Source: Microbacterium sp. AZCO (lineage in GTDB: Bacteria > Actinomycetota > Actinomycetes > Actinomycetales > Microbacteriaceae). From it: DNA of 64,000 bases. Where the stretch lies: NCBI RefSeq assembly GCF_039614715.1, contig NZ_CP154857.1, forward strand, positions 2,232,001-2,296,000, read 5' to 3'. The notes beneath the pieces were generated by a model. It was not told the origin of the DNA. It searched no databases and was given only the letters and a program-made list of their open reading frames with translations. Each line of letters opens with the position of its first letter. The first letter of the stretch is position 1. Both the position numbers and the translations under genes were made by a program. Shown here piece by piece: positions 7,574 to 46,373 of this stretch.

Positions 7574-7633
7574 CGATCGTTAGGCGCGCAGCCTCGCAAT
7601 GAAATCAGCGACGGTGACGCGCAAGGGGACCGA

Positions 7634-7843: not shown

Positions 7844-7867
7844 CCCGTGACGTGCGTAGGCGGACCC

Positions 7868-11972: not shown

Positions 11973-12045
11973 GGGCTGGGTCGAGAAGTCGCGCCGCACT
12001 CCATGAGGCAGGGGCACGATTCGCGGGAGGGGCTCACACTACGAC

Positions 12046-12237: not shown

Positions 12238-12278
12238 TCAGAACAACTGACCCGCACGGTGTCGAGAAACTCCACCAT

Positions 12279-12530: not shown

Positions 12531-12788
12531 ATCGCTGTTGTATCAGGCACCGACGACACAAGGCGGAAGCCGTTGCTATTGATTCGATGTCAGTCGGCAG
12601 CTGCCCGAGTGGGTCAGTGCGGCGGGACTCGAGATCGACAGCGCACGTAGCGGTCCCTTCAGCGGTCAATGCCCGAATCAGGATCCTCACTGCCTCCTCG
12701 GCAGCGCGCGATTCGGTCTTGCCTCCTCCGCATGGCCAGAGCAACACCGGTGCCCCAAGGCCGAAGTTGTTGCATCGGTCTGGGGGCA
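12531..12788 (-). other. Gene-poor stretch with a P-loop-like coding fragment
   Basis: No complete gene. On the minus strand one frame reads FGLGAPVLLWPCGGGKTES and later ALCRRCLIQQRYGP. The GGGKTE resembles a helicase Walker A motif and the CRRC a zinc knuckle, so this may be a decayed ATPase fragment. The evidence is thin and no family is claimed. Confidence 0.25.
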
Positions 12789-12828
12789 AAGAGCGGGGCG
12801 GATCCGAGCGCGAATCCGCCCCGCTCTT
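12789..12828 (-). terminator. Rho-independent-type terminator of amt
   Basis: A perfect 15-bp stem (12789-12803 with 12814-12828, arm AAGAGCGGGGCGGAT) around a 10-base loop, nine bases past the amt stop codon. Confidence 0.8.
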
Positions 12829-12836
12829 CGGAGGTG

Positions 12837-32299: not shown

Positions 32300-32364
32300 C
32301 AGGGTTCTCGCCCCAGGCGGTGGTCCGGCATCAGAGTCGTCCCCCTCAGAACGGAGCCGGTCAT
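32299..32364 (-). CDS. 21-codon coupling mini-ORF between tadE-like genes
   Basis: Begins with ATG overlapping the tadE stop (TGATG) and ends with TGA overlapping the next gene's ATG. Encodes MTGSVLRGTTLMPDHRLGRE plus one residue. Three similar contexts, CTCTGATGACCGG, CTCTGATGCCGG and CCCTGATGCCGG, occur in this stretch. Likely serves re-initiation rather than making a functional peptide. Confidence 0.3.
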   Translation of the reverse strand: MTGSVLRGTTLMPDHRLGREP

Positions 32365-32702
32365 CAGAGTCCTCCCGCGAGCGCGCACGATCGCGCTGTG
32401 AGCGTGATCGCGACGACGCCGGCCGGGGCCGAGGCGGTCACGCAGACCAGCTCGCCCGTACGATCCACGGCGGCGGATGCCCCCGCCACGGCGCGGGCCA
32501 CCACGGCGGCGGCCGCGGACTCGGGTTCGTCGCGCGCGATGAGGCGCGCCGCGTCGGCTGCGGCATCCTGCAACCGCACGTGCCGCGCCCCCGCGGCGAG
32601 CGCTCCCCCGCCCAGGAGCAGGACGAGCGCGACGGCGGGGAGCGCGACCGCGAACTCGGCGACGACCGACCCGCGATCGTCGCCGAGCCGCAGCCGGCTC
32701 AT
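32364..32702 (-). CDS. TadE-like minor pilin protein
   Basis: 112 residues. GDDRGSVVAEFAVALPAVAL is the TadE N-terminal motif (a short basic leader, acidic residue, then a long hydrophobic helix), followed by a predicted periplasmic/extracellular part with conserved VRLQDAAADAARLIARDE and two Cys. It normally helps assemble Flp-type pili. Its ATG overlaps the DUF4244 stop (ATGA). The same codons are also the in-frame C-terminal tail of the integrase reading frame from the inserted element. Confidence 0.75.
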   Translation of the reverse strand: MSRLRLGDDRGSVVAEFAVALPAVALVLLLGGGALAAGARHVRLQDAAADAARLIARDEPESAAAAVVARAVAGASAAVDRTGELVCVTASAPAGVVAITLTARSCALAGGL

Positions 32703-34583
32703 GCCACCGTGAGGGCGCGGCGCACGAGGTCGGTCAGGATGCCGCGCACCTCGTCCGAGCGCATGATGACGACGAGCAGTCCGGCGAATGCGACGGCCGC
32801 CATGGGCCGACTTTGCGGAGTTACTCGCCGCAGGACGTGCCACGAGGTGCCGTCCGGAGGAGCCGCCAGGAGTGCGACCGTCCGACTCCGGGTTGTCCGG
32901 ACCGGAACCGCCACCGGAACCGCCGCCCGCCGTGCCGCCGTCCTCACCGAACGACAGCCGCGGGTCGATGGAGCCGGACACGACGAGGCGCTCCGGGCGT
33001 GCCACACGGTCCCTGCCGGACACGATCTCGCCGCCCATCGTCACGCGGATGTCGAGGATCTCGCACACCTCGCGTCGCGCCTCTGGCGGCATCGTCGCGA
33101 GCCTGCCGCGCGCCCGCTCCGCCAGCGCGGCGAGGTCACTGATCTGCTGGGCCTTCGCGGTCGCCTGCGCCCGGAACGCGTCATAAGCGGCCCGTCGCTC
33201 GCGCAGGGTGGCGAGCTCCCGGCCGATGTCGGCCAGCGCCGCACGGAGCAGGTCCGGCGTGTCCGACAGGAGCAGCTCGCGCGCCGCGTTCGCCTGTCCG
33301 CGCTCCAACTCCTTGATGCGCTTGTCGATCCCGGCGACCACCTCAGCGCCGCCGTCGCCGTCCTCGTCCGGAAGCTCCAGCCACGCCCGCGCCGCCGCCT
33401 CCAGTCGCTTCGAGTCCGACAGGAACGACGACACCACCGACCAGACGCGCTCGTCCAGATCCTGCACCTGCACCTGCTTGCAGCCGCACTTGTCGCCGCC
33501 GTGGCGGTTGCCCGTGCACCGGTACGTGTCGAACGGCTTGTCCTTGAGCGAGACACCGTAGTACGCCTTGCCGCACGCGCCGACGATCCGCATGGTTAGC
33601 ATCTGGGAGCGCGCCGCCGCCGGGTTGAACTGCTCCCGGCGGGCGAGGGCCCGGCGCACCGCCTGATACTGCGCCTTCGACAGCGGAGGCTCAGGCAGGG
33701 CCAGCTCGATCGGCTCGCCGTAGACGGGCTTGCCCTCCCAGTCCAGCTTCGTCTTGTGCGAGCGGGCGTACTTGCCTGACTGGTTCGGCGCGCCCCACGT
33801 GACCTTGCCGGACCACATCACGTCGTTGCCCAGTATCTGTCGGATGACCTCCTTGCTCCACGGCGTCGCCGCAGGTTCCGGCTCACCCAGGCGCTCCGCG
33901 CGCTTGCGGTCGCGGATCGTGCTGCGGGTCGGCACCGCCAGCGCGTTGAGGTGGTCGGCGATCTTGCCGGGGTTCCAGCGCTTGCGCACCAGCAGGTCGA
34001 CCATCAGGTCGAAGGTCTCACGCTCGGCTTCGTCGGCGACCACCCGCGCGGGCTTGTGCCCTTCGAGACGCCACGTGTACGGCGGCGTGCCGCCAGGCCA
34101 GTGCCCCTGGTGGCCACGCGCGCGCTGACCGCGCACCGTACGCTCGCGGATCTTCCGGCGCTCCTCCTGGGCCCACAGCATCCGCAGGCCGGTGAGGAAC
34201 TCCTCGTCCTCCGCGGCGGCGTTGGTCGCGGGGTTCTTCGCGTCGTGCAGGGCAATCCCAAGGGCTCGCAGGTCACGGGTCGCGCCGATCCCGAGCAGGA
34301 TGTCGCGGGTGAACCGGTCGAGGTCGAACACGAACACGGCGTCGAACTGCCGGTCCCTGGCGGCACGGAGCAGGCGCACCCACTCGGGGCGGGCGGCATC
34401 CGCGCCGGATTCGCCGCGCTCGATGAACTCGCCGACGTTCTCCCAGCCGCGGCGTTCGATCTCGGCGAGGCACCATGCCTTCTGGGTCTCAAGCGAGGTG
34501 CCGTCTTCGACCTGGCCCGCCGTGCTGACGCGCAGGTAATAGACCGCCCGGGTGGCGGTGGCTGGCTTGCGTGGTGCGCTCAT
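32364..34583 (-). CDS. Large serine recombinase (integrase), open into tadE
   Basis: Starts ATG 34583. Resolvase domain with catalytic Ser20 in VYYLRVSTAGQVEDGTSLET, then DLDRFTRDILLG, the recombinase domain (TPYTWRLEGH, PWSKEVIRQILGNDVMWSGK) and a zinc ribbon (GACGKAYYG, DKCGCKQ) with a coiled-coil region (RIKELERGQANAARELLL). Element-derived codons end at the attachment core (about residue 594); no stop lies there and the frame continues in frame through host DNA to the tadE stop, 739 residues in all. In the excised circle the frame would instead end after 28 further codons at TAA (46195-46197). Mediates site-specific integration. Confidence 0.9.
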   Translation of the reverse strand: MSAPRKPATATRAVYYLRVSTAGQVEDGTSLETQKAWCLAEIERRGWENVGEFIERGESGADAARPEWVRLLRAARDRQFDAVFVFDLDRFTRDILLGIGATRDLRALGIALHDAKNPATNAAAEDEEFLTGLRMLWAQEERRKIRERTVRGQRARGHQGHWPGGTPPYTWRLEGHKPARVVADEAERETFDLMVDLLVRKRWNPGKIADHLNALAVPTRSTIRDRKRAERLGEPEPAATPWSKEVIRQILGNDVMWSGKVTWGAPNQSGKYARSHKTKLDWEGKPVYGEPIELALPEPPLSKAQYQAVRRALARREQFNPAAARSQMLTMRIVGACGKAYYGVSLKDKPFDTYRCTGNRHGGDKCGCKQVQVQDLDERVWSVVSSFLSDSKRLEAAARAWLELPDEDGDGGAEVVAGIDKRIKELERGQANAARELLLSDTPDLLRAALADIGRELATLRERRAAYDAFRAQATAKAQQISDLAALAERARGRLATMPPEARREVCEILDIRVTMGGEIVSGRDRVARPERLVVSGSIDPRLSFGEDGGTAGGGSGGGSGPDNPESDGRTPGGSSGRHLVARPAASNSAKSAHGGRRIRRTARRHHALGRGARHPDRPRAPRPHGGMSRLRLGDDRGSVVAEFAVALPAVALVLLLGGGALAAGARHVRLQDAAADAARLIARDEPESAAAAVVARAVAGASAAVDRTGELVCVTASAPAGVVAITLTARSCALAGGL
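32699..32803 (-). pseudogene. DUF4244 pilin-like gene, 3' piece (split by element)
   Basis: 35 codons including stop, reading MAAVAFAGLLVVIMRSDEVR and onward to LTVA. Joined to 46281-46373 at the shared ATG it restores a 64-residue DUF4244 protein with a leader, conserved TAEYAIATM and a hydrophobic helix. In the present arrangement it is cut from its start codon. Confidence 0.8.
32801..32803. other. attL core (serine integrase crossover, element left end)
   Basis: The CAT trinucleotide (ATG on the gene strand) is the only sequence shared by the two host-element junctions; the matching copy is at 46281-46283. Joining 32803 to 46284 rebuilds the DUF4244 reading frame exactly. Confidence 0.75.
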
Positions 34584-34747
34584 CGTGTCCCTCCGTTCCG
34601 CAGGGCGTACGCCTCGCGGCGGTACGTGTTGAGGCAGCCACGGCAATACGCCTGCCGGGCGGTGCCGCCCCTCTCGCGGAGGGCGAAGTCTTCGACGGGC
34701 TTGTGCTGTTCGCAGTGAGGGCAGAACTTCGTCTGGGTGTCGGTCAT
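34580..34747 (-). CDS. Small zinc-finger protein
   Basis: 55 residues (MTDTQTKFCPHCEQHKPVED at the start). Two pairs of Cys, CPHC and CRGC, about 19 residues apart, make a zinc ribbon; the rest is basic (LNTYRREAYALRNGG). Its stop overlaps the integrase start (ATGA), so it is translated with the integrase and may act in recombination or its control. Such HNH-like mini-fingers are frequent in actinophages. Confidence 0.6.
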   Translation of the reverse strand: MTDTQTKFCPHCEQHKPVEDFALRERGGTARQAYCRGCLNTYRREAYALRNGGTR

Positions 34748-34749
34748 GG

Positions 34750-35058
34750 TCACGGGGTCACCTCCGACATCGGGGCGTCGTACCAGCGCGGGTGAACCTG
34801 ACGCCACTGGTCCTCGCCGGGGATCAACCCGAGGGTCGAGCCGTCGTCCCAGGCGACGTGGACGGTCCCGGCGTCGTCCACGGACTCGATGACGCCCGTG
34901 GCGTTCAGCCCGAGGTGGGTGTGGGGGTCCGAGGTCGACACGAGCGCGATGTGTGCGCCGACGTCGGTCGGGTTGAGATCAGCCGCCGCCTGCTTGGCGA
35001 GGATGCGCTGGCCGATCTCGGCCGCGATCTCGGCGGAACGTGCCTGGTCGTCAGTCAC
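34750..35058 (-). CDS. DUF4314-like small phage protein
   Basis: 102 residues from GTG 35058. The C-terminal part HIALVSTSDPHTHLGLNATG, VIESVDDAGTVHVAWDDGST and LGLIPGEDQW is the DUF4314 pattern (an SH3-like small barrel). Function unknown. Coupled by GTGA overlap to the gene upstream and two bases from the zinc-finger gene. Confidence 0.6.
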   Translation of the reverse strand: MTDDQARSAEIAAEIGQRILAKQAAADLNPTDVGAHIALVSTSDPHTHLGLNATGVIESVDDAGTVHVAWDDGSTLGLIPGEDQWRQVHPRWYDAPMSEVTP

Positions 35059-35345
35059 TTCTCGCCGCCCTTCGTCGTGGCGGTCGCCGCGATGCGCTCG
35101 GCGGCACGCGTGAACTTCGCCCGGAGCGGGTCGGACGGGAGAGCCTTCGCGATGCTGGCGATCTCCCGCTTCGTGATGGGCTTGCCGTCCGCGATGTCGT
35201 TGTGCAGGTAGCCCAGCAGCGTGGACACGTGGCGCGCGTCGTGGCCGGGCTTGTACATCGCCTTCGAGGTGATGGGGAGGCCGCACTCGCAGGCGCAGCC
35301 GTGCGCGGTCGGGTTGTCGGTGGGGGGTGCCTTCTTCGTGGTCAT
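35055..35345 (-). CDS. Phage-type hypothetical protein with Cys-rich start
   Basis: 96 residues. GCACECGLPITSKAMYKPGH with DARHVSTLLGYL is a short Cys/His segment found in small actinophage proteins and may bind zinc. The rest is helical and basic. ATG at 35345 is the first gene of the leftmost transcription unit; the 171 bases upstream include an AT-rich patch (about 35399-35425, two ATATCG steps ten bases apart) that could hold its promoter. Confidence 0.6.
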   Translation of the reverse strand: MTTKKAPPTDNPTAHGCACECGLPITSKAMYKPGHDARHVSTLLGYLHNDIADGKPITKREIASIAKALPSDPLRAKFTRAAERIAATATTKGGEK

Positions 35346-35516
35346 GGCGGGGTATCCAATCCGTGTCTGATCTGGGCTTTCTGCCCTTGATTTCCATGAA
35401 AACATATCGAGATATATCGCGTCTATTCCGGCCTCGGCGTGGTGTGAGCGAAGCCCGGTGCCGGCGCGCGGAGATGTCCGGGCGGGACGCAGCGACGGCA
35501 CCGGGCGGTCCATGGG

Positions 35517-35765
35517 CTACTGCGCGTCCTCACGGATCGCGCGGAACCGCGCAACGCGCACGCGGGCGTCGAGGTACGCCAGCCACGCCTCAACCACGGC
35601 GTCGCGCCGCTGGCGGCACTGTGCCTCCCAGGCGTCTCGGCTACCGTCCGGGGACTGGTCCGGCCCCGGGTGTGCCGCGAGGTCCTCGTAGGCGTCCAGG
35701 GCTCTCTTGTAGTCGTGGCGTGCGCGGCGGAGGCCCCGCCGCGCCTGCTGCTCGATCTCGTTCAT
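35517..35765 (-). CDS. Hypothetical helical protein
   Basis: 82 residues (MNEIEQQARRGLRRARHDYK at the start), strongly charged and alpha-helical throughout, likely coiled coil. It opens with the same MNEI start as the neighbour at 35777-36028. No family recognised. Confidence 0.6.
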   Translation of the reverse strand: MNEIEQQARRGLRRARHDYKRALDAYEDLAAHPGPDQSPDGSRDAWEAQCRQRRDAVVEAWLAYLDARVRVARFRAIREDAQ

Positions 35766-35776
35766 CGTGCGCCTCC

Positions 35777-36028
35777 TCAGTGGCGTTCTCGGTTGGATCT
35801 GATGTCCGCCCCGCATCCCGGGCAGAGGAGCAGCTCGACGCACACGACGCACATCTCGGCGTCGGCGTACTCCTCGGGCCGCAGGTAGCGCTCGCGGCTG
35901 ATGTCCGCACCGCAGTAGGCCGTGTTCGGGTCGCCGCAGACGCAACGCTCGCGCGTGAAATGCGTCAGGCTCTCCTCCGGCGGCGGCTCCGTCACGTGCT
36001 CGGCCGGCTGGTCCTTGATCTCATTCAT
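35777..36028 (-). CDS. Hypothetical Cys-rich protein
   Basis: 83 residues with four Cys pairs: RCVCGDP, TAYCGAD, CVVCVELLLCPGCGAD. They could coordinate two zinc ions. Overlaps the upstream gene by eight bases. Function unknown; small zinc-binding proteins are common in actinophage early regions. Confidence 0.6.
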   Translation of the reverse strand: MNEIKDQPAEHVTEPPPEESLTHFTRERCVCGDPNTAYCGADISRERYLRPEEYADAEMCVVCVELLLCPGCGADIRSNRERH

Positions 36029-36464
36029 GGTTCGCCTCCTCAGGCGTCGTGGTGGGTGTTGCGCGGTCGGATGCTGGGACGAGCCGCAGCTGCTCTGCCG
36101 GGAGCTGGCGGAAGCGTCGGCGAGCGGCCACCGCGTGCGCGTGGCACAGGCCGTTCCTGACCGCCGAACGGCCACAGGCCGCAACCCAGCAGCCGGGGGC
36201 GGACGAGTGCACCCGCGAAGCGCCGTGCACCTCGTCCTCGTTCTCGGCGACCCACGCGGCCAGCGACATCCCTCGCCGGCGAGCGCGACCCCGCAGGGTG
36301 TCGTAGTGCTCGCGGCAGAGTCCGAGGCTGAACGCCGAGTGATCGCAGACGGCCACGACGCACGGCCGGTCGGCACCTCGGACGGCGGGCCACGCCCGCA
36401 CCTCAGCCACATGGACCTGCAACCAGCCGGGGATCGTGAACTGAGGAATCTTGGTGTGGTTCAT
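36021..36464 (-). CDS. Hypothetical protein with duplicated Cys/His motif
   Basis: 147 residues from ATG 36464 (MNHTKIPQFTIPGWLQVHVA). Two related segments, CVVAVCDHSAFSLGLCREHY and CWVAACGRSAVRNGLCHAHA, repeat the pattern C-x4-C-x(2)-S-x3-x-G-L-C-x2-H, a zinc-binding module used by phage DNA-associated proteins (HNH-like remnants). The internal duplication is clear; catalytic residues are not evident. Confidence 0.6.
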   Translation of the reverse strand: MNHTKIPQFTIPGWLQVHVAEVRAWPAVRGADRPCVVAVCDHSAFSLGLCREHYDTLRGRARRRGMSLAAWVAENEDEVHGASRVHSSAPGCWVAACGRSAVRNGLCHAHAVAARRRFRQLPAEQLRLVPASDRATPTTTPEEANHE

Positions 36465-36759
36465 GCCGATGCCTCCTTCGAGGTCAGGTCTCGCGGGCGC
36501 GCGAGGTCGAGCCGAAACGTGCCGTGTTTGCCGTGGGGGCGGCTCGGAGCCTCCTCGACCTGCTGCCCCCGATGGGGGGACTGGGGGGACGCGTGTCCCC
36601 CCATGGGGTCGCACTCGGCAGATTGACTAGTTGTCAAGGCGATCTCTCTCCCGCGTCGTGACGGTGTTGTGTTGTGTCGAAGTTGCTTTTCAGGTACCCC
36701 TATAGGGCTGTGTGAGTGTGTAGATGGGGGGACGTGTCCCCCCTGTCCCCCTGTCGCGT
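36465..36759. other. Non-coding stretch with two GC-only hairpins
   Basis: 295 bases between the Cys/His protein and the prim-pol stop. Hairpins GGGGGGAC-N4-GTCCCCCC at 36583-36602 and GGGGGGAC-N2-GTCCCCCC at 36726-36743, with further GGGGGGAC and TGTCCCCC partial copies beside them. The second lies 17 bases past the prim-pol stop and may terminate it; the iteration could alternatively be replication-origin or operator sequence. Confidence 0.5.
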
Positions 36760-38946
36760 TCACTTCGCACCTCCGAGGCGGTAGCGGGTGCCGCCGTGCG
36801 CGGCCTCCTCGGGGACCACGCGACCGAGCCGCACGAGCAGATCGAGAACCCCGTCGAAGAACGGCTTGTCGCGGCTGGCGAGCTTCCGCTTGAGGACGCC
36901 CTGCGCCAGCGGTCCGGCGGCGAGGTGCTTCTCGACCAGACCGGAGATTCGGTGCGTGCGAGCCCGTTCGGCCTCGGCCTGTGCGGCGTCGTCCTGCGCG
37001 GCTCGCAGCTGGCCCCGCTTCGCCGCCTCGGCACGCTGCGACTTCTCCACCTCGGACTGCATCCAGTCGCGGGTTCGATCAGACACCTGCATCACGACCC
37101 CCGCGAGCAGCCAGTCCTCATCGTTCATCTCGGCGCGGCCGTCGATCAGCGCCAGCCCGTAGGCGAACTTGAGGCGGGCGAGTAGCGCGTGGCCGTCCAG
37201 CGACGTGGCCCCGCTGCCGACCATCTCGATGCGGGTCTGGATGATCAGGTCGCGCGCTACATCCGGCACGGTCAGCTCGACCTTCGGTTCGAGGTACTCG
37301 TCCTCGAAGCGCCACGGCAGACCGATCTCGATCTCGCCCGGCCACGGAGGGATGTCCTGCGCGTTGCTCACGTCCAGTCCGCCGAAGCCGGGGATCCAGA
37401 TGAACCGCTGAGGCGTCCCGCCGTCCGCGTCGCCGAACAGCGACGCCGCGCGGCCCGGCTGCGCCAACACCACCAGGCACATCCGGTACGAATGCGGCTC
37501 GAGGATGACCTTCTTCGTCGGGTCGCCGTAGCCGAACCCGAGCCGGCCACCGGTCCAGCCCGCCCGCAGCGACCCCATCAGCGTGGAGCCCTGTCTGCTG
37601 CTCAGCGCGGTGAGGTTGTCGATCTCCGAGACCGTGAACAGGACGTTGGTGTAATCCATCACCAGGTTGCCGTTGCGGTCGCGGTGCGCGTACGCCCTCG
37701 TGAGGCCCTCTCCTGAACCGAGCGCATCCTCCTGCACCTGCGTATCCGCCTGGATCACCAGAAGGTCACGGGCGACGTCTCCGGAGGCGTCCTTGCCGCC
37801 ACCGGACGGCGCGACGACGCACGTGAAGGTGTTCAGCGACGCTCGACCGCCGATGATCGGCGGCAGGTACACGTACGGCGGCACGGCGGCAAGCGCCCGG
37901 ACCACCGAGCCGACCAGCACAGCCCACGGCGAGACGAGACGTGCGCGTGCCGCCTGGCGGATGTGGCCCAGGACCGGCCGCGCCGCCCAGAACTGCTCCG
38001 TGCCGGCGAGGATGTCGCGCACGTTCGTGGCCGGATCCAGGGTCGACTCATCCAGCGTGGCCGGGGGCACGTCGTCCCACGAGTGCAGCGGACCCTCACC
38101 GGGGTGGTTCGTCCGGTCGGTCTTCCACACCGAGTCGGTCACCTTCGCGATGTCCTCGTAGTCGGGATCCACGAGAGCAGCCGCGCGCTTGACCTCCGAG
38201 GCGTATGTCTCGAAGTCGCCACGGTGACGCGCGGCCAAGTGACCCGCGACGGCCGTGAGCCAGTCGTTCGTCAGCTCCTGCCCGCGCACAGGCGGTGCCG
38301 CGAGCAGCTCGGACAGCGACGGCTTCGCCGGGCGAGCTCCGCCACCGTGCGCGACCGGTGGCGTCGTGAGGAACCGGACGAGCCAGTCCGGCATGTCGGC
38401 TGCGGGCATGTCCTCGTCTTCGGCTTCGTACACAACCCCGGTCGCGTGCACCGACCCAGCGGCGACCACGTATCCGCCAGCGCCGCGCACGTCGATGTCG
38501 TAGCCCGCGGCCTTGAACGGGTTGTAGTTGGTGATCCGCACGCCGTCCGGGACTGCGAAGTAGTAGTGGTGCCCTCGGCCGGTGCGGACTCGGTACGTCT
38601 CGGGCATCTCGACGCCGTTGTCCCGGCAGAACCGTTCGACCTCGCCGGGCATGTCTTCGTCGAGGACGCCGACCCCGGAGGGCCCGCAGGCCACCGCGAG
38701 GTTGTAGCCGCGCTTGCGCCAGCTGCTCACCTTGGCCGCGCTGTCGGTGGCGTCGGTCTGCCATGCGCCGATCGGGTGCTTACCGCGCTCGATCTTGCCG
38801 TGGGCGTTGGGCCGGTCGCAGAGCGCCCGGTCGTAGTCCTTCGGGTGCGCGCCGAGGCACTCTGGCGCTGCTGGGTTGTCCAGCGGCACCAGGTGGAAGC
38901 GCTCCGGCGGAAGCGGGGGCGCGGCCTTCTGTCCGACCTTCGGCAT
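36760..38946 (-). CDS. Prim-pol/ATPase replication protein
   Basis: 728 residues. The first ~200 match bifunctional DNA primase/polymerase (prim-pol): GYNLAVACGPSGVGVLDEDM with the acidic catalytic pair, and RVRTGRGHHYYFAVPDG with the metal-binding His region. The second half has an ATPase core, TCVVAPSGGGKDASGDVARD (Walker A) and VLFTVSEIDNLTALSS (Walker B), like DUF3987/helicase modules. The C-terminal ~120 residues are a coiled segment and a winged-helix-like region. Such fused proteins start replication of satellites, plasmids and small phages. Its ATG overlaps the stop of a 38-residue gene. Confidence 0.85.
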   Translation of the reverse strand: MPKVGQKAAPPLPPERFHLVPLDNPAAPECLGAHPKDYDRALCDRPNAHGKIERGKHPIGAWQTDATDSAAKVSSWRKRGYNLAVACGPSGVGVLDEDMPGEVERFCRDNGVEMPETYRVRTGRGHHYYFAVPDGVRITNYNPFKAAGYDIDVRGAGGYVVAAGSVHATGVVYEAEDEDMPAADMPDWLVRFLTTPPVAHGGGARPAKPSLSELLAAPPVRGQELTNDWLTAVAGHLAARHRGDFETYASEVKRAAALVDPDYEDIAKVTDSVWKTDRTNHPGEGPLHSWDDVPPATLDESTLDPATNVRDILAGTEQFWAARPVLGHIRQAARARLVSPWAVLVGSVVRALAAVPPYVYLPPIIGGRASLNTFTCVVAPSGGGKDASGDVARDLLVIQADTQVQEDALGSGEGLTRAYAHRDRNGNLVMDYTNVLFTVSEIDNLTALSSRQGSTLMGSLRAGWTGGRLGFGYGDPTKKVILEPHSYRMCLVVLAQPGRAASLFGDADGGTPQRFIWIPGFGGLDVSNAQDIPPWPGEIEIGLPWRFEDEYLEPKVELTVPDVARDLIIQTRIEMVGSGATSLDGHALLARLKFAYGLALIDGRAEMNDEDWLLAGVVMQVSDRTRDWMQSEVEKSQRAEAAKRGQLRAAQDDAAQAEAERARTHRISGLVEKHLAAGPLAQGVLKRKLASRDKPFFDGVLDLLVRLGRVVPEEAAHGGTRYRLGGAK

Positions 38947-39062
38947 CAGGCGTCACCGCCGACCGCGGGCGCGTCCGACCCGAAGAGGAGAGCGAGCAGG
39001 CGCTCGAACTGATCGTCCGGTAGCGGTGAGGTGGTGAAGTGAACGTGACTTGCGGCACGCAT
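38946..39062 (-). CDS. 38-residue protein coupled to prim-pol
   Basis: MRAASHVHFTTSPLPDDQFE, then RLLALLFGSDAPAVGGDA. Stop and prim-pol start share TGATG, so the two are translationally coupled. The C-terminal LxxLFGSDAPA resembles the VFNALFGSADLAP of the microprotein at 42494-42619. First gene of the leftward replication unit. Confidence 0.5.
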   Translation of the reverse strand: MRAASHVHFTTSPLPDDQFERLLALLFGSDAPAVGGDA

Positions 39063-39600
39063 GGTGGACTCCGTGTCCACCGGTGCCTATTTGTCGTCAG
39101 GACCGCCCGAAGGTCTTACGTCCCTAAGCCACGCTTCGCGCTACTCGGTGATTCCCATGAGGCCCAGGTGTCGGCTCGTCAGCGGTCCGTTCCCGTCACC
39201 TCCGTTTCAGGTGACTCAGGTTCGCGTGCGGCTCGTTGTTGCCCGCACTTCCAGGTTCGGTGCGTCGTCCGACTATGGCGTCGGTCCTCGGTGTTCAGTT
39301 TCGATCTACCAAGAATCCAAGCACAATGCAGTATTTGGGCGCAAGGCGACACGCCAACCTTGACTCGCAGTCACGCTCGCTGAGCAGATTGCTCAACGCG
39401 GCCATTCCGTGCTCCGCGACCCCGCTGGTAGAATCGAGGCGCGGTGGTTCGCCCCGTTCAGTCGATCTCGACTCGGCCCCTGCTCCGGCGGGGGCCTTGT
39501 CGTGTCGCCCGTCGCGTGCTCGGTCGGACGCCCGCACGGCCGGGGAACCGGGTAGGGTCGAAGGTCCGCCGTAGCCTCGGCGAGTCTCCCGGAGAGCCGC
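39063..39600. promoter_or_regulatory. Divergent control region between replication and methyltransferase units
   Basis: 538 bases without a supported gene. Possible rightward promoter TTCCGT-N18-TAGAAT (39405-39434). A GC hairpin GGCCCC (39475-39480) / GGGGCC (39491-39496) followed by TTGTCGT looks like an attenuator or terminator upstream of the methyltransferase. No repressor gene is adjacent. Confidence 0.4.
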
Positions 39601-40677
39601 GTGTCGGTGGCTCAAACTAAAGTCCAGAGCCGTGTCCAAGGAAGTGGTGAACTCGTGACCGTGAAGGCCGATTCGGTGGCACCCGTTGCCCCCCTCGGGG
39701 CAGAGGACTCGGGCGAGAAGCTGCGTGTCGCGAGCTTCTTCGCCGGCATCGGGGGCTTCGATCTCGGGTTTGAGAACGCTGGCATGGAGACCGTCTGGCA
39801 GTGCGAGAAGAAGGACTTCTGCCTCGACATCCTGGCCAAGCATTGGCCGAACGTTCCGCGCATGGAAGACATTACGGAGGTAAAGCCGGATGACATCCCG
39901 GAAGCCGACATCTGGGTCGGAGGATTCCCCTGCCAAGACGTCAGCCTCGCTCGAATGGGTCCCCGGAGTGGGCTCCGAGGCAAGCAGTCAGGACTCTTCT
40001 ACGACTTTGCCAAGCTCATTGAAGCGCGTCGCCCCGAAGTTGTCGTCCTCGAAAACGTTGCGGCACTCCTCTCTTCCCACGATGGACGAGATTTCGCAAT
40101 CATCCTTCGGACGCTGGCCGACATCGGGTATGGCGTCGCATGGCGAGTTCTTGACAGTCGATACTTCGGCGTCCCCCAAAGCCGAACTCGAGTCTTCATT
40201 GTCGGATCTCTTAGAGGAGCAGACGCCGCCGGATCGATACTTTTTGAGTCCGAACGCGGCGACCGGGATTCTGAGAAGAGCCGATCGAATGGGGCGAAAC
40301 CTGTTTCCCCCTTTGCGATCAGCGTTGGAGATCCTCAGCGGGGGTTCGTCAAGAAGCTCGCACACTGCCTCTACGCCGAGTCAGCCCGACACACCGGAAC
40401 CGACTGGTCGCGAAACTACGTCTCCTACCCGGACGGACGAGTCCGCCGCCTGACGCCGCTGGAGACCGAGCGACTCCAGGGCTTCCCCGACGACTGGACC
40501 ATGCCGGTCAAGGAGATTGCCAACGTCAACACCCTGGATTCTGCGCGCTACCACGCGTGCGGCAATGCGGTGTCCGTGCCTGTGGTCGAGTGGATCGGTC
40601 AGCGGATCGTCGAGCAGCTGGGCGAGCAGCTCATCGAGGCGCGTTACGCCGCGAACTCAATGGCCAAGTCGGCGTAG
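39601..40677 (+). CDS. DNA (cytosine-5) methyltransferase
   Basis: 358 residues with the C5-methyltransferase motifs in order: I ASFFAGIGGFDLGFENAG, IV GGFPCQDVSLARMG with nucleophile Cys111, VI EVVVLENVAALL, VIII SRYFGVPQSRTRVFIVG, IX RRLTPLETERLQGFPDDW, X ARYHACGNAVSVPVVEW. GTG start at 39601, shortly after a purine-rich site. Converges with the HNH nuclease gene (34-base overlap of 3' ends) and is followed by vsr, which makes a complete restriction-modification-repair cassette. Target sequence unknown. Confidence 0.93.
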   Translation: MSVAQTKVQSRVQGSGELVTVKADSVAPVAPLGAEDSGEKLRVASFFAGIGGFDLGFENAGMETVWQCEKKDFCLDILAKHWPNVPRMEDITEVKPDDIPEADIWVGGFPCQDVSLARMGPRSGLRGKQSGLFYDFAKLIEARRPEVVVLENVAALLSSHDGRDFAIILRTLADIGYGVAWRVLDSRYFGVPQSRTRVFIVGSLRGADAAGSILFESERGDRDSEKSRSNGAKPVSPFAISVGDPQRGFVKKLAHCLYAESARHTGTDWSRNYVSYPDGRVRRLTPLETERLQGFPDDWTMPVKEIANVNTLDSARYHACGNAVSVPVVEWIGQRIVEQLGEQLIEARYAANSMAKSA

Positions 40678-41825
40678 AGCCGGTCCAGGTAGGTCCGGCT
40701 CGGCCACAGCGCCGGGTCGCTCGGGAACCACTCGGGGCGAAGTGTCTGTTTATGCATCCCGAGCTTCGCAAGTGTGTCAGCCGAGAAGTTGTCTACGGCG
40801 AGCTGGGTAAAGCGCAACGTCGGAATGTCACGCCGGCTTCCCTCGTAGTACGGGAGCAGGAGCGCCGCGTCGAACGCCCAGTGGTGAAGCTTGCAGAGGC
40901 TGATCCCATTCGGCACCACGTCAAGGTCGTACTTGCTCCACGCCAAAATGTGCGCGGCATCAACCCCTGAGCGCACCGAGGCCACACCGCCGTAAACAGC
41001 TCCGCAGAACGCACACCGGTTGCCATAGGCGGCGCGAATCTCGGTGCTGAACTTGCGGCCGGACGCCCCGCGAATCTTCGCCAAGCGGTATTCATGGGCG
41101 GACCGCGCGCTCACGACCGGCTCTTCCTCGCCGATCTCGTCGGGCGGTGGAAGTGACGGACCAGGAAGCGGCACGATCCCCAATAGCGCCTCTAGCCCGG
41201 GGAGAGGGTCCGTGTCTGCTACCCAGCCGGCGATAGCCCCGGCGAGTGCTCTTTCGAGGTTCCGAACGATGGAGCCGAGGCGGGCGTCGACAGGATCGCC
41301 GCTCGCCATGAACGTCCGGTGCTGAACTACGAGCGAGCGCACGTTGGTGGGCAAGAGGTCAAGGCTCGCGTAGACGGCTTCGATACGTGCCCAGCGGTGC
41401 CGAATGCCGACCGTTTCCTTATCCGTCTGGTTATCGAGGTCTACGAACACGGGGTCGATCGTGACAACATCGTTGATCCCGGTGAACTCGGTGTCGGGGC
41501 CGAACCCCAGCCGCGTGAGGACGTAGCCCTTGTGGCGCGCGACGGGTAAGCCGCTGAGTGTGCCGTCGTAGTTCCGTCGCGGCTCCGGGAGCATCAGCAT
41601 CGACGCAGCTTGACGGCCGATCTGGAACGCTTGCGACCGGAGTGAGCGGAGACGCGGCTTGCCGCTGTCACCGGGATCGAGCCACAGGTCGGTCTCACGA
41701 ACGATGCCGTCTGGCCACCGCAGCTGGAAGGTCCAGCTTTCGAGGTCCATCGCCGACAGACCGGTGTGGCTCCCGACCACCTCATACTCTCCGCGACCGC
41801 CGGAGCGCCGAAAGCCGATGTGCAC
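40644..41825 (-). CDS. HNH endonuclease, probable type II restriction enzyme
   Basis: 393 residues. C-terminal HNH domain: CAFCGAVYGG (zinc Cys pair), VDAAHILAWSKYDLDVVPNG (H, N) and ISLCKLHHWAFDAALLL (H). The N-terminal ~270 residues have no recognised motif and probably read the target. Placement tail-to-tail with the cytosine methyltransferase argues for a restriction partner rather than a homing enzyme. The 3' ends overlap by 34 bases. Confidence 0.85.
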   Translation of the reverse strand: MHIGFRRSGGRGEYEVVGSHTGLSAMDLESWTFQLRWPDGIVRETDLWLDPGDSGKPRLRSLRSQAFQIGRQAASMLMLPEPRRNYDGTLSGLPVARHKGYVLTRLGFGPDTEFTGINDVVTIDPVFVDLDNQTDKETVGIRHRWARIEAVYASLDLLPTNVRSLVVQHRTFMASGDPVDARLGSIVRNLERALAGAIAGWVADTDPLPGLEALLGIVPLPGPSLPPPDEIGEEEPVVSARSAHEYRLAKIRGASGRKFSTEIRAAYGNRCAFCGAVYGGVASVRSGVDAAHILAWSKYDLDVVPNGISLCKLHHWAFDAALLLPYYEGSRRDIPTLRFTQLAVDNFSADTLAKLGMHKQTLRPEWFPSDPALWPSRTYLDRLYADLAIEFAA

Positions 41826-41913
41826 GAATGCTCCTCATGACTGCCTGCTACTTCGATGAGCATATGGGCATCGCAGATACTCGCCTCTCAACGCGCCGAT
41901 CTACGATCGAACG

Positions 41914-42345
41914 GTGGCGGAGTCCTGGGCTTCAACCCCTCACACTCGTCGGTCGATGCAAGGCAATCGGTCGAAGAACACCGGGCCGGAACTGGCGGTG
42001 CGGTCGCTGCTTCACGCCCGTGGCCTGCGGTACCGCACACATTTACGGCCGGAGCCGGCCCTCAGGCGGACAGCCGACGTTGTGTTCACTCGGCGCAAGG
42101 TCGCCGTGTTCATCGACGGGTGTTATTGGCACGGGTGCCCTGAGCACTTCGTCATGCCGAAGTCCAACCTGGAATACTGGCCAGCGAAGATCGAGCGTAA
42201 CCGGGAGCGGGACCGCGACACCGATGCGGCGCTACGCGCGGCGGGTTGGACGGTTCTCCGCTACTGGGAGCACGAGCCACCCGCCGTCGTCGCAGACGAC
42301 ATCGAGAAGGTCGTGCACGGCGGGCAACCGTTCAGGGTGCGTTGA
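41914..42345 (+). CDS. vsr: Very short patch repair (Vsr) endonuclease
   Basis: 143 residues. TRRSMQGNRSKNTGPELAVR, HARGLRYRTHLRPE, TADVVFTRRKVAVFIDGCYW, HGCPEHFVMPKSNLEYW and the C-terminal VLRYWEHE match the Vsr fold; the Asp of ADVVF and the Cys/His of the zinc site are kept. It nicks T:G mismatches produced when 5-methylcytosine deaminates, thereby protecting sites methylated by the neighbouring enzyme. GTG start at 41914 retains the conserved RSMQGNRSKNT; ATG 41956 would lose it. Confidence 0.88.
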   Translation: MAESWASTPHTRRSMQGNRSKNTGPELAVRSLLHARGLRYRTHLRPEPALRRTADVVFTRRKVAVFIDGCYWHGCPEHFVMPKSNLEYWPAKIERNRERDRDTDAALRAAGWTVLRYWEHEPPAVVADDIEKVVHGGQPFRVR

Positions 42346-42365
42346 CTCGACTGCGAAACCCGGCG

Positions 42366-42497
42366 TCAGCCGCGCTTGTGCTGCGGTGGGTCCTGGTTCT
42401 CGCGCAGTTCGAGGAACACCGCCTCGACGTCCGGGCGAGACGGTGCCGGCGGCGGGGGCGGGGGCGTCGCGGGGGTGTTGCTGTCGTTAGAACTCAC
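42366..42497 (-). CDS. Microprotein of the PxRPDVExVF family (third in run)
   Basis: 43 residues: MSSNDSNTPATPPPPPP, then APSRPDVEAVFLELREN and a short basic end. Pro-rich and disordered except for the motif helix. Its GTG overlaps the stop of the previous microprotein (GTGA). Function unknown. Confidence 0.55.
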   Translation of the reverse strand: MSSNDSNTPATPPPPPPAPSRPDVEAVFLELRENQDPPQHKRG

Positions 42498-42619
42498 TGG
42501 TTCTCCTTCGGTGCGAGGTCGGCCGAACCGAACAGCGCATTGAATACCATCTCAACGTCGGGCCGCGCCGGGGCAGACGGTGCCGACTGGGCGGGCGGTG
42601 GCGTGTTGGCGTCACTCAT
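42494..42619 (-). CDS. Microprotein of the PxRPDVExVF family (second in run)
   Basis: 41 residues: MSDANTPPPAQSAPSAP, then ARPDVEMVFNALFGSADLAP and KENQ. Same motif as its two neighbours. Start and stop overlap both of them (ATGA, GTGA), so all three are translationally coupled. Confidence 0.55.
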   Translation of the reverse strand: MSDANTPPPAQSAPSAPARPDVEMVFNALFGSADLAPKENQ

Positions 42620-42729
42620 CCCTTGTCCCTCGGCTTGCCGTGTTCGGTCGCCATGACCTCCTTGAACACCACCTCAACGTCGGGTCGGGACGGTGCCGGC
42701 TCTGGTGCCGGGTTCTCGCTGTCTGCCAC
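42616..42729 (-). CDS. Microprotein of the PxRPDVExVF family (first in run)
   Basis: 37 residues: MADSENPAPEPAPSRPDVEV, then VFKEVMATEHGKPRDKG. The second of two adjacent GTG codons (42729) is favoured by AGGAGG five bases upstream. This strong ribosome binding site serves the three-gene run. It follows the membrane-protein gene by nine bases. Confidence 0.55.
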   Translation of the reverse strand: MADSENPAPEPAPSRPDVEVVFKEVMATEHGKPRDKG

Positions 42730-42738
42730 CACTACCTC

Positions 42739-43242
42739 CTACGGTGCTACTACTGCGCTGATAACGACAACGAAGAGGGCGCTCGTCATGGCAGCGATGA
42801 GCAGCACAAAGCCCCAGCTCGTCAAACCGGCCTTCCGCTCGTTCTGCGTGTTCCGGTTCTCGACCTCTTTGGACTTCACCTCAAGGATGTGGTCTTCGAG
42901 ATCTTCCGGCGACATGTCGGCATCCACCCACATCTTCACCATGTCTGGCCCGGAGGGCACGCGCAGGCGGCGTGGCCACAGAACCACCGCCGCGACCACC
43001 ACGGTCGCGAGTGTTAGAACCAGCGGGATAACGCCCATGAACCACGTGTCGTCGCTGACGAGCTCGGAGCCGGTCACGCCCGCCAGGAAACCGGCGGCGA
43101 CGACGAGAAATGAAGCCTTGGTGTCGGTGGTGCGCGTCCGCTCGACCGCTGCGCTCCGCGACTCGTCGAGCTCCGCGCTCAATAGGCGGACTCGCTCGAC
43201 CCGGCCGCTGACGCGCGCCGAATCCGCAAGTGCCTCTGTCAC
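42739..43242 (-). CDS. Membrane protein with PycTM/SLATT-like layout
   Basis: 167 residues from GTG 43242. An N-terminal charged helix (VERVRLLSAELDESRSAAVE) leads into DTKASFLVVAAGFLAGVTGS, a second pair-like segment WFMGVIPLVLTLATVVVAAVVLWP, a cytoplasmic part (DMVKMWVDADMSPEDLEDHI) and a last helix GFVLLIAAMTSALFVVVISA. The D-x-KA-SxL start of the first helix resembles membrane effectors of cyclic-nucleotide defence (PycTM/DUF5706), but no cyclase is nearby, so the assignment is structural analogy only. Confidence 0.6.
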   Translation of the reverse strand: MTEALADSARVSGRVERVRLLSAELDESRSAAVERTRTTDTKASFLVVAAGFLAGVTGSELVSDDTWFMGVIPLVLTLATVVVAAVVLWPRRLRVPSGPDMVKMWVDADMSPEDLEDHILEVKSKEVENRNTQNERKAGLTSWGFVLLIAAMTSALFVVVISAVVAP

Positions 43243-43246
43243 GCGA

Positions 43247-43399
43247 TCAGGATAGACCGCACTTCGGACATACCCACTTGGCCTCGCCCGGGGGCGTCTG
43301 CATTGCCTGCATGCGGTGGAGGCAGCGCGGGCAGTTCGGGGTGTCGAGAATGCGCTCGCGGTCGCGTCGGCGCTCCCGCTGCTGCTCCAAGTCATCCAC
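43247..43399 (-). CDS. Zinc-ribbon protein
   Basis: 50 residues from GTG 43399: a charged helix MDDLEQQRERRRDRERILDT, then CPRCLHRM and WVCPKCGLS. Two CxxC knuckles form a zinc ribbon. Four bases upstream of the membrane-protein start, same strand. Typical of small phage DNA-associated proteins. Confidence 0.6.
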   Translation of the reverse strand: MDDLEQQRERRRDRERILDTPNCPRCLHRMQAMQTPPGEAKWVCPKCGLS

Positions 43400-43446
43400 G
43401 CTGGGACTCTACGCCCGGGAACACGCGTCCTCGGCCCTCCGTGACG

Positions 43447-43513
43447 TCTCCCGCGACCTCGGAGACGCCCCGGCCCCCGTCGTAGGGGTGATGGGGGCCG
43501 AGGTCGCGGGAGA
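43447..43513 (-). terminator. Long hairpin after terL
   Basis: Perfect 16-bp stem (43447-43462 with 43498-43513, arm TCTCCCGCGACCTCGG), inside which GGCCCCC and GGGGGCC can extend pairing. It starts 12 bases past the terL stop. Terminator or packaging/replication structure. Confidence 0.6.
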
Positions 43514-43524
43514 GGCAGGAAGCG

Positions 43525-44892
43525 TCAGGCGGCATCCGCGAACTCGTCGTCGTCACGAACGCCCGGCGCGTGGTCGAACGCCGGAGCCACACTCACCTGG
43601 TGCCGCCAGAATCGCCGGGTCGAGTACACGGCATATCGCCAGGCGTCGAGCTCGTCGTCGTCCTCCTTGATCGGCTCATCGACGCCGCGAGCAGCCGCCT
43701 TCGGGTCCCAGAGGTAGCCCGGCACATGCTCGATGAGCGCCGGGCAGGCATCGGAGACCGCGATCCGATCCACCGCCATGAGCGCATTCAAGGTCTGGAT
43801 GCCGCCGTCCTTCGCGTTATGAGCGGCCCAGGTTGTCAGGCCGTCCTCGAACAGCTGACTCCGGAAGTGCTTAGCCGCCGGATCCACGAACACCCACTCG
43901 GGCTTGCCGAACTCGCGCTCGACCTGCGCCAGCCATGAGCGGAAGCGTGCCGACTGGCGAGCCGGCGACATGTCCTGCTCGGGGGCGAACTCGGCCACTG
44001 TGTACAGCACCCGAGGGATGTCGGCTGCGTCTAGGTCAGGGGTCGGCTTGATGCGCCAATCCGGGCCCATCCCGACCGCATAGGCGCGTGTCGGGTGCTG
44101 GGTGCCGAAGTCCACCGCTACGCCGATTACGCAGTCGAGCGGGGGCACGTCTTCCGCCTTCACGACGTGGCGCGCCTCGTCCCACTCCTCGAAGACCGCC
44201 CCTTCGGCCTGCACCCATTCGCCGTTGAGGAACCTCCGACGCCAAAGTCCCGTGTACTCGCGATCCAGCTGCGCGACATACGTCGGATTCGACTTCATCA
44301 GCCACTCGTTGTCCGGGAGCATGAAGTGGAACCTCTTGTAACCCAGTTCCGCGACGCGCTTGATGATCATCCGGTGCGCCCAGTGGTGCGGCCCGTCCGG
44401 GTTCGTGGTGGCGAGGATGCGCGCCCCGGGGGGCGACATGCGGCCGAGCAGCTGCGTCCAGAATGTCTCGCTGATCAGCGTCAACTCATCCACGTAGGCG
44501 AGAGCGACCGTCAGGCCACGGAGCACCATCTCCGAGCGCACATCCGACGCCCCGAGGATGTGCACCGTCCGGCCGAAGACACGAGCAGTCGACGCGCCCG
44601 GTGTGTACTGGACGGACGCCGCGAACTCCCCGAAGATCGACGGGTCCATCAAGACGTCGAATACGTTGCGCGCGATGCTGTCGCGCGTCCGACCCACCAC
44701 GACGACCGCGCCGCCGGGTGGCGGATCCGCCGCCGCCATGAGGAACGCGAACAGCGACGCGATGGTCTTGCCCGAACGGATCGCGCCGTCCCAGATACAT
44801 ACCTTCGCGGTCTCGCCGTGCGAGTTCGGCGTGAACGCACGGCCGATGGACTCGCGCTGTGCCGGCGACAGGTCGAGGGGTGCACCGGTCAT
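43525..44892 (-). CDS. Phage terminase large subunit
   Basis: 455 residues. ATPase: WDGAIRSGKTIASLFAF (Walker A, Lys42), ALAYVDELTLISE (Walker B), ARILATTNPDGPHHW (coupling motif). Nuclease: VIGVAVDFGTQHPTRAYAVG, WVFVDPAAKHFRSQLFEDGL and DDDELDAWRYAVYSTRRFW supply the acidic metal ligands. PBSX/phage-type length and order, apparently intact. It drives DNA into a prohead, yet no portal or capsid gene is found in this element. Its ATG overlaps the small-subunit stop. Confidence 0.9.
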   Translation of the reverse strand: MTGAPLDLSPAQRESIGRAFTPNSHGETAKVCIWDGAIRSGKTIASLFAFLMAAADPPPGGAVVVVGRTRDSIARNVFDVLMDPSIFGEFAASVQYTPGASTARVFGRTVHILGASDVRSEMVLRGLTVALAYVDELTLISETFWTQLLGRMSPPGARILATTNPDGPHHWAHRMIIKRVAELGYKRFHFMLPDNEWLMKSNPTYVAQLDREYTGLWRRRFLNGEWVQAEGAVFEEWDEARHVVKAEDVPPLDCVIGVAVDFGTQHPTRAYAVGMGPDWRIKPTPDLDAADIPRVLYTVAEFAPEQDMSPARQSARFRSWLAQVEREFGKPEWVFVDPAAKHFRSQLFEDGLTTWAAHNAKDGGIQTLNALMAVDRIAVSDACPALIEHVPGYLWDPKAAARGVDEPIKEDDDELDAWRYAVYSTRRFWRHQVSVAPAFDHAPGVRDDDEFADAA

Positions 44893-45395
44893 TCCGTCAC
44901 CAGCCCCTCGCGTGCGCCGTTCTCGCCCACGGCGCCGGTCAGGGCCACGATCAGGTTCCCCATGACCGACTTGGCGCGCTCCGCGCCGCCGTCGCCCGTC
45001 TGATCGGTCTTGGTCACCTTGTCGTAAGCGCGAATGGCGGCATCGCCGCCCTGCATGTAGTACGCGAAGTCACGCGCACTTTCGGCGACGGCGGCACGCT
45101 CCGCGGCACGCTCGGCTTGGTCGAGCAGCTTCTCGGCGATCGCGTCGCGGCGGTTCTTTGCGTACTGCGAGCGATAGCCGCGTGCACGAGCTGCGGACTC
45201 GGGAGTGCCGGACGAACCCTGGTTGACCCGCCCCCACTCCACGCCGGGGGTGTCGCTGACGATTCGCCGAACTGTGTTGGTGTGTAGTCCCGTGGCCTCG
45301 GCGGTCTCGCGGATCGACTTGCCCTGGCGGGCAAGCGCGACCACGCGTTCCTCCACCTCGGCGGGGGTCCGGTTGTGACTACGCTTGCCCGCCAC
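44889..45395 (-). CDS. Probable terminase small subunit
   Basis: 168 residues. N-terminal helix-turn-helix (PAEVEERVVALARQGKSIRE, TAEATGLHTNTVRRIVSD) for DNA recognition, a central helical oligomerisation region (KNRRDAIAEKLLDQAERAAE), and a C-terminal part. Position directly upstream of terL with ATGA-type overlap supports the assignment; the HTH alone would also fit a regulator. Confidence 0.75.
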   Translation of the reverse strand: MAGKRSHNRTPAEVEERVVALARQGKSIRETAEATGLHTNTVRRIVSDTPGVEWGRVNQGSSGTPESAARARGYRSQYAKNRRDAIAEKLLDQAERAAERAAVAESARDFAYYMQGGDAAIRAYDKVTKTDQTGDGGAERAKSVMGNLIVALTGAVGENGAREGLVTE

Positions 45396-45398
45396 GAC

Positions 45399-46124
45399 TC
45401 ACCGTCCGTTCGTCCGTGCGAGGCGGTCCAGGCGGACCACCTCCTGGTCGACCTTGTAGCTGTCGATGAACTCGTCCGACTGGGTGATCGACGCGGCACC
45501 GGTCGGGTCGACCCGGTACAGCTCGCTCATCGCCGGGATCGACACCGCGCCCTCGAGTGCCTCCGAGAGCACCCGACGCCACGCAAGTGCCAGCTGGTCG
45601 CCCTCCTCGGCGCGGATGACGCCCGCGGCTCCGGCGTGCCCGAGCTCCGCCAGGCGTCCGATCGCGAGATCCTGGATCTCCCGGATGAACGCGTCCGGGT
45701 TGATCGACTGGATCGCCTCGGGGAGCAGCTCGACGTTTGCCACGATCGCGATGAGGCGCTGCTCCGACGCCGACAGGATCACCTGCTCGATGGAGCGGCC
45801 CCCTGCGATCAGCTGACGCGCGACGTCCCACTCGCGACCCTGCACGGCCACCTCGTCGGCGTTGGTCGGCTGGAACGACGCGGCCAGGCGCTGGCGCGCG
45901 TTCGGCGTCGCCTCGGCCACCTGCCCGGTGCCGGGGATCGACACCGCCGGGGGGAGCTTCGCGAGCAGCGCCTTGCGGGCCTCCTCGATCAGCTCGATGC
46001 GCCGGTTGGTGGTCGCCGTGTTCGTGAACCGCGGGTCCGCGAACTTGAGCGCCTCCGCGAGCGAGCGACGGTAGGTGTCGTACGCCTCGACGTACAGCCC
46101 CGTGCTGTTCTGGGTGATTGACAT
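45399..46124 (-). CDS. Phage/satellite protein of unknown function
   Basis: 241 residues from ATG 46124 (MSITQNSTGLYVEAYDTYRR). Mainly helical; blocks such as QLIAGGRSIEQVILSASEQR and LALAWRRVLSEALEGAVSIP. No motif recognised; it does not look like a portal or major capsid protein. It sits immediately upstream of terS. Upstream codons are open and continue in frame into the DUF4244 start at 46373, so in the integrated state it can also be made as a 324-residue fusion with a pilin leader. Confidence 0.7.
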   Translation of the reverse strand: MSITQNSTGLYVEAYDTYRRSLAEALKFADPRFTNTATTNRRIELIEEARKALLAKLPPAVSIPGTGQVAEATPNARQRLAASFQPTNADEVAVQGREWDVARQLIAGGRSIEQVILSASEQRLIAIVANVELLPEAIQSINPDAFIREIQDLAIGRLAELGHAGAAGVIRAEEGDQLALAWRRVLSEALEGAVSIPAMSELYRVDPTGAASITQSDEFIDSYKVDQEVVRLDRLARTNGR

Positions 46125-46280
46125 TGGATTCTCCAATCTGGGCGGGGCTCTCGGCCCCTGGGTGACCCGGCGACCCTTCGCCGCCGGGGGTCTGTTAGGC
46201 GGCGAGAGGGTCGGCCTCGCGGGCCTCGTGAACCTCGAACGCGAACGCGGGCAGGGCCGGGAAACTTGGCATAGTCGGGG

Positions 46281-46283
46281 CAT
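46281..46283. other. attR core (serine integrase crossover, element right end)
   Basis: CAT copy matching 32801-32803. Flanking sequences differ on the element side and match the two halves of the host gene on the host side. Confidence 0.75.
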
Positions 46284-46373
46284 CGTCGCGATGGCGTACT
46301 CGGCGGTCGCGGCGCCGGTCTCGTCGGCGAAGAGCCGCGAGGCGCGGCGGCGGGTGAGGCGTGGGATCGACAT
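46281..46373 (-). pseudogene. DUF4244 pilin-like gene, 5' piece (split by element)
   Basis: 31 codons: MSIPRLTRRRASRLFADETG followed by AATAEYAIATM, with AAGGAG upstream of the ATG at 46373. Basic leader, then ETGAATAEYA, the prepilin-type cleavage/helix start of DUF4244 proteins. The remaining 33 codons are at 32699-32800. Confidence 0.8.

Follow-up and report, generated by a model that had tools for sequence, protein, structure and literature searches.

Prophage A118 in comK is reportedly a case of active lysogeny. Bordetella phage PHB09 was found inserted in a pilin gene (PMC7010805, cited from an excerpt, as are all papers below). In mycobacteriophage BPs, integration strips an ssrA-like-tagged C-terminal segment from the repressor (PMC4557955), and with the archaeal "suicidal" tyrosine integrases of SSV1, pTN3 and pT26-2, recombination takes place at a site inside the integrase gene, so that integration splits this gene (PMC8371274). 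The excerpted text of this 2021 review describes self-disrupting recombinases as exclusively archaeal. Here we describe a 13.5 kb element at positions 32804-46280 of a 64,000-nucleotide stretch of DNA from Microbacterium sp. AZCO, from now on referred to as the window. The element splits the pilin gene DUF4244, and its predicted attP is located inside the 3′ coding end of its own large serine integrase gene.

The element resembles BPs and its relatives in that attP lies within a coding sequence of the element and a C-terminal tag segment would be removed on integration. However, BPs cuts its repressor gene, whereas attP was found here inside the gene of the integrase itself, a serine integrase, in a satellite-like element. 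With the archaeal systems it shares a recombination site in the integrase gene and the splitting of that gene on integration, but the enzyme is a serine recombinase of Actinobacteria rather than an archaeal tyrosine recombinase, and a short C-terminal tail is exchanged while the catalytic domains stay intact. Its integrase, primase-polymerase and terminase genes, defence cargo, size in the range of ~13-16 kb and lack of a recognised head gene recall phage-inducible chromosomal island (PICI)-like satellites; it differs from them in its own terminase large subunit (TerL) and in the position of attP, and its sisters G149 and G177 also have a gene for a short tape-measure protein. PICI-like satellites are induced and packaged by a helper phage; the window element resembles them in predicted gene content. 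As with A118 and PHB09, a mobile element breaks a functional host gene (a pilin gene both here and in PHB09) that could be restored precisely, but here integrases of at least two families target the same place across many species, and excision was carried out in silico. Among the papers listed in our literature search, none was seen to describe a serine integrase with attP inside its own gene.

The attachment site within the integrase gene

An earlier note on the window had placed the element inside DUF4244 at a shared ATG, and the sequence at both ends agrees. On the minus strand the gene starts at 46373, breaks at ...GCGACGATG/CCCCGACTATGCC (position 46281) and resumes at ...AAAGTCGGCCC/ATGGCGGCC... 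(position 32803). Joining the flanks by script reproduced the 64-residue pilin-like protein that the note had proposed (MSIPRL...TAEYAIATMAAVAFAGLLVVIMRSDEVRGILTDLVRRALTVA, followed by a stop), with the break at codon ATG of TAEYAIATM/AAV. The centre of exchange can be refined to the dinucleotide AT within this codon: around AT the core-flanking arms form an inverted repeat, though an imperfect one, with 19/28 symmetric matches; at 2000 random positions the mean is 11.5, the 99% level 16 and the highest value 18 (of 28). The parts separated or created by integration are as follows.

46281..46373, minus strand: 5′ half of DUF4244, Flp-type pilin, GAATAEYAIATM (sequence and in-silico joining)
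32699..32803, minus strand: 3′ half of DUF4244, MAAVAFAGLL... (sequence, PF14029 and in-silico joining)
46282..46283, minus strand: predicted attL crossover dinucleotide AT (symmetric centre of the attP arms)
32802..32803, minus strand: predicted attR crossover dinucleotide AT (symmetric centre of the attP arms)
32804..34583, minus strand: large serine integrase body, 593 amino acids, no stop before attR (Pfam domains, open frame)
46195..46283, minus strand: C-terminal integrase tail of the circular form, HAPTMPSFPALPAFAFEVHEAREADPLAA followed by a stop, parted from the body by integration (in-silico junction, natural relative P0019)

A tRNA-type attachment was ruled out, as neither end has a tRNA, and a chance match of the ATG was ruled out because relatives have their break at this very place, next to integrases. 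The integrase adjoins attR and contains the resolvase (PF00239), recombinase (PF07508) and zinc ribbon (PF13408) domains, all scoring above their cut-offs. Its RVST motif, which we take to be catalytic, is invariant in 9/9 integrases. By these features it is a large serine integrase of the phage large serine recombinase (LSR) type, with a predicted role in recombination. In the integrated form its reading frame continues past attR to 32364, in frame with a TadE-like gene, while across the in-silico circular junction it ends in ...KSAHAPTMPSFPALPAFAFEVHEAREADPLAA and a stop, shortly before the first open reading frame of the element (ORF1).

Both ends were read in 13 elements, located in DUF4244 (window, G149, G046, G315, G423 and G571), in a tadC-like gene (G037, G257, G259, G177, G337 and G347) or in a HIRAN-domain gene (G598); G342 was excluded from the tail count with its left end off the contig. 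In 12/13, across all three target genes, the tail is read at the opposite end of the element in the frame of the integrase, and the gene is interrupted by its own attP. Circular tails include ...LPPFEWRIEAA, ...LPPFRFSTNAERKAA, ...LPKFPFEVSLREAA, ...FPAFEFQLDAPYAA and ...LPPFAWQIEADRRAA. All 12 end in AA, compared with 0/12 integrated C-termini (all re-read by script) and with 4/123 predicted genes of at least 100 amino acids in seven examined regions. For the six tadC-type elements, AA was the ending at each candidate position of the tail that was located. The host tmRNA tag, AEQKQSAFALAA, ends in ...ALAA and the window tail in ...DPLAA; beside this ...PLAA, other tails end in EAA, VAA, RAA, KAA or YAA. 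Integrated C-termini fall within the TadE-like product in the window and G149, whereas in the others an alternate frame is followed and stops a short way past the core. These reconstructions show that integration swaps a conserved tail, with a PxFx[FW]-like motif and an AA end, for alternate-frame host sequence, with only the last ~21-33 integrase residues being lost. Among the six tadC-type tails, pairwise differences by codon position are 72/58/103, highest at the third position by a modest margin; a stop remains in each, as TAG, TGA or TAA.

Natural uninterrupted proteins fit the predicted junctions. Among 43 homologous proteins, P0019 (78% identical) ends in ...GHGPTMPGYSFPAFAFAVPEEAA as predicted for the window, and P0012 ends in ...EDRPREQSYSLPPFEWSIEADRPAA as predicted for G149, both being known as protein sequences. 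Several further homologues end in alternate-frame DUF4244 sequence, corresponding to the integrated form. Thirteen distant homologues (P0028-P0040) have uncut ends, none of which finishes in AA, but 11 of them contain a P-x-x-x-F motif (e.g. FPSFEFEI, LPQIEFTIP). The tail therefore seems to be older than the layout with attP inside the integrase gene, and it is with this layout that the AA ending goes in the sequences compared.

Tad pilus genes as insertion sites

DUF4244 contains a G/AATAEY motif, which we take to be the Flp prepilin signature (glutamate 5 and tyrosine 6 after the cleavage site). A DUF4244 protein is also labelled "pre-pilin Tad" in a table of PMC11418510. The order tadA-tadC-DUF4244-tadE given in the earlier note can be corrected: tadA and a single T2SSF gene are found upstream, and the TadE gene is recognised by its position and a Pfam match below cut-off.

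47302..48525, minus strand: tadA, T2SSE ATPase (Pfam T2SSE)
46421..47305, minus strand: tad T2SSF membrane protein (Pfam T2SSF)
32364..32702, minus strand: TadE-like gene downstream of the split pilin (Pfam TadE match below cut-off, E 0.0058, and position)

The truncated 5′ half of the pilin gene is open in frame through the left end of the element into ORF1, as a fusion (45399-46373, minus strand).

After an initial sample of 198, a PF14029 search was carried out in 366 Microbacterium genomes. It matched 362, of which 328 have a full-scoring hit (best E <=1e-17), in keeping with the uninterrupted DUF4244 expected in relatives, and 34 a weaker one (split or partial); 4 have no match. In the window genome only the 3′ half is matched at the default E-value. 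After follow-up of 18 + 19 genomes with weak, double or no match, there are 26 (window included) in which the halves share a contig at a distance of 8-81 kb; in 2 more the halves are on two contigs, and 6 have a single half. The same-contig splits are cut at the AT of ATG or at the GC three bases on in 24/26, with a serine integrase at an end. This bears out the proposal that a conserved pilus gene serves as a site-specific attachment site, and other elements do occur at the same place. Three of these 24 insertions (window, G149 and G315) belong to the window integrase family and 21 to a second family. The remaining two splits, in G092 and G348, are cut elsewhere and have no integrase match. 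DUF4244 is cut at other positions in G092 (L074/L075), G124 (L078) and G348 (L118/L119), following LLVVI[MI]R in G092 and G124, and no integrase was identified for these three elements. Judged from the genomes, two integrase families use the DUF4244 site as a hotspot throughout the genus. No description of DUF4244 as an attachment site was seen among the papers listed in our literature search, and the words pilus and pilin are absent from the excerpted main text of an LSR survey (PMC10083194).

The two families differ in the centre of their sites. Window-family arms are centred on AT in 5/5 DUF4244 elements tested, with scores of 14 to 19 of 28, the lowest of which just reaches the 95% level for random positions. 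For the second family, where 3/11 elements were skipped by the search pattern, symmetry is highest about GC in 5/8 elements tested; GC is tied with another centre in L062 and L065 and slightly below another centre in L106. Both cores are palindromic, and both insertion orientations occur: the second-family integrase points inward from attL in 15/22 cases and the opposite way in 7/22 (the 21 elements and G355, which lies on two contigs). Forty-three integrase C-termini were compared with 26 intact host loci; automatic classification was noisy on GC-rich antisense frames, and only matches starting at the expected core position were counted. The C-termini of P0005, P0006 and P0009 match the reverse strand from this position, and the element of Leucobacter is inserted inverted, too.

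Sister integrases are located near the 3′ end of a tadC-like gene (T2SSF) in another tad locus, where it is preceded by another T2SSF gene and tadA (Pfam-checked in G347). The core of these elements is the non-palindromic CT in 6/6, and they have a single orientation in the 7 genomes found. In another genus (G598, L140), the same integrase type sits in a HIRAN-domain gene (PF08797 on the upstream piece) with the same tail layout. In the second tad locus of G037 and G257 (L094, L095), a pilin-like gene downstream of the tadC-like 3′ end is broken (..TLMTAG / ..LITLV), as if by a further element at the equivalent codon.

Gene content of the element and its relatives

Between the DUF4244 halves, the integrase is accompanied by the genes below and by small ORFs.

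45399..46124, minus strand: ORF1, 241 amino acids (a similar-looking gene is first in related elements)
44889..45395, minus strand: TerS-like helix-turn-helix protein (weak profile match)
43525..44892, minus strand: TerL (~75% nucleotide identity to Microbacterium phages, 11 records)
42739..43242, minus strand: PycTM-like (Pycsar effector-like) protein (profile match)
42106..42345, plus strand: Vsr-like nicking endonuclease, 79 amino acids (profile match)
40644..41825, minus strand: HNH_2 protein (profile match)
39601..40677, plus strand: C5-cytosine DNA methyltransferase (profile match)
36760..38946, minus strand: primase-polymerase (Prim-Pol; profile match)
34750..35058, minus strand: DUF4314 protein (profile match)

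ORF1 has no match in Pfam, PHROG or phage records. No head, portal or tail gene was recognised in the ORFs scanned, which leave out some small ones, and a full prophage was ruled out on this basis. With an integrase, a replication gene and a packaging gene but no full structural set, the element is, by predicted gene content, a phage-satellite-like island. Defence-type genes were found in 3/3 sister elements inspected, namely PDC-S32 in G149 and G347 and a methyltransferase with a restriction enzyme in G177. G149 (L061, oriented 11901-13751) and G177 (L097:5096-6955, minus strand) also encode a short tail tape-measure protein (616-619 amino acids, PF20155), beside which no further structural gene was recognised in either; perhaps it gives the satellite control of tail length.

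The window integrase family was found in 11/366 Microbacterium genomes. It has no close phage relative among 470 matching phage records, all <60% identical and with the top-ranked at 26.8% among the matches listed, and four scans of viral contigs yielded no close relative and one distant match (29%). Elsewhere in the window, positions 3000-13000 have a G+C content of 0.60-0.65 compared with about 0.70, and possibly represent another mobile region.

Consequences of tail exchange and pilin disruption

We hypothesize that the large serine integrase inserts the satellite-like island into DUF4244 at the 2-bp AT core and that its tail acts as an ssrA-like degron, perhaps as a functional C-terminus as well. 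Integrase made from the circle would be short-lived, limiting integration and preventing re-integration after excision, while integrase of the integrated form would be tail-less, stable and primed for excision on arrival of a directionality factor or helper phage. On circularisation, the integrase gene would be followed directly by ORF1 and the terminase genes, and pilin inactivation would be a by-product of target choice, reversible in principle and tolerated or favoured. We regard the chances of this integration-dependent removal of a degron-bearing tail as evenly balanced. With attP inside the integrase gene, a single recombination would insert the element, remove the ssrA-like degron tail and disconnect the packaging genes; that serine integrases edit their own C-terminus in this way is plausible, though we lean slightly against it. 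Tail removal can be read as the serine-integrase counterpart of BPs-type immunity and of the archaeal "suicidal" integrases.

Several observations weigh against a degron that is removed by integration. The residue before AA varies (L, E, K, R, V, Y), and these ends need not all be good ClpX signals. The 12 tail-cut elements share kinship and are therefore not 12 independent events, and in G046 the integrase has an internal stop and the ends are on two contigs. In Leucobacter salsicius (L131/L142, G571) the tail is uncut and ends in GG, and the att site is found ~0.5 kb past the stop of the integrase gene; the layout is therefore not universal. Tail loss may also inactivate the integrase rather than stabilise it, because the related tail of uncut homologues suggests an older structural role. 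The integrase would then need its tail, and integration would turn it off and lock the element until a related intact integrase arrives from another element. The motif in distant uncut homologues, suggesting an ancestral functional C-terminus, and the archaeal precedent (PMC8371274) speak for such a lock, and with the integrase family in 11/366 genomes, help from another element is conceivable. However, the resolvase, recombinase and zinc-ribbon domains remain intact after integration, with ~21-33 end residues lost, and the AA end is seen only with attP inside the integrase gene, which makes this alternative rather doubtful. Mere compactness, with neither tail nor AA end having a regulatory role, would agree with the frequent overlap of features in small genomes and with the Leucobacter relative, which lives without overlap, but we give it little credence given the protein-level conservation and fixed end of the tail across three targets and the AA excess of 12/12 over 4/123.

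Other explanations concern the pilus. Loss of the Tad pilus could itself be the benefit, if integration removes a phage receptor and competing phages are therefore excluded. Two tad genes are repeatedly targeted, one of them by two integrase families, the window and the three sister elements inspected carry defence cargo, and in Caulobacter phages use Tad pili as receptors (PMC11067988). On the other hand, no paper on a Tad-pilus phage of these hosts was among the matches listed. We hold a receptor-removal benefit to be somewhat improbable. We know of no Tad-pilus phage of these hosts. The earlier note had proposed an active-lysogeny switch, in which regulated excision restores the pilin and selection holds the element in place for phase control of a surface structure. 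Its premise that precise excision would restore DUF4244 holds in silico, where the reading frame is intact after joining, and it is in line with same-contig splits in 26/366 genomes and with sister integrases that repeatedly target a second tad gene. Yet a conserved coding site, matched in 362/366 genomes, would serve well for landing even if it had no part in regulation, and some inserts of 30-80 kb are likely whole prophages; a switch of the pilus is a possibility rather than a result, and an unlikely one in our estimate.

If removal of a degron tail by integration is true, these elements would represent a minimal switch in bacteria in which the product of recombination controls the recombinase, and this switch would belong to the class of enzymes on which genome engineering draws most. 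Integrase stability would directly report the integration state, and the elements could supply ready-made att/int pairs. The palindromic AT and GC cores are natural evidence that such cores accompany insertion in both orientations, and the DUF4244 insertions provide an example, across a whole genus, of mobile elements landing repeatedly in pilus genes.

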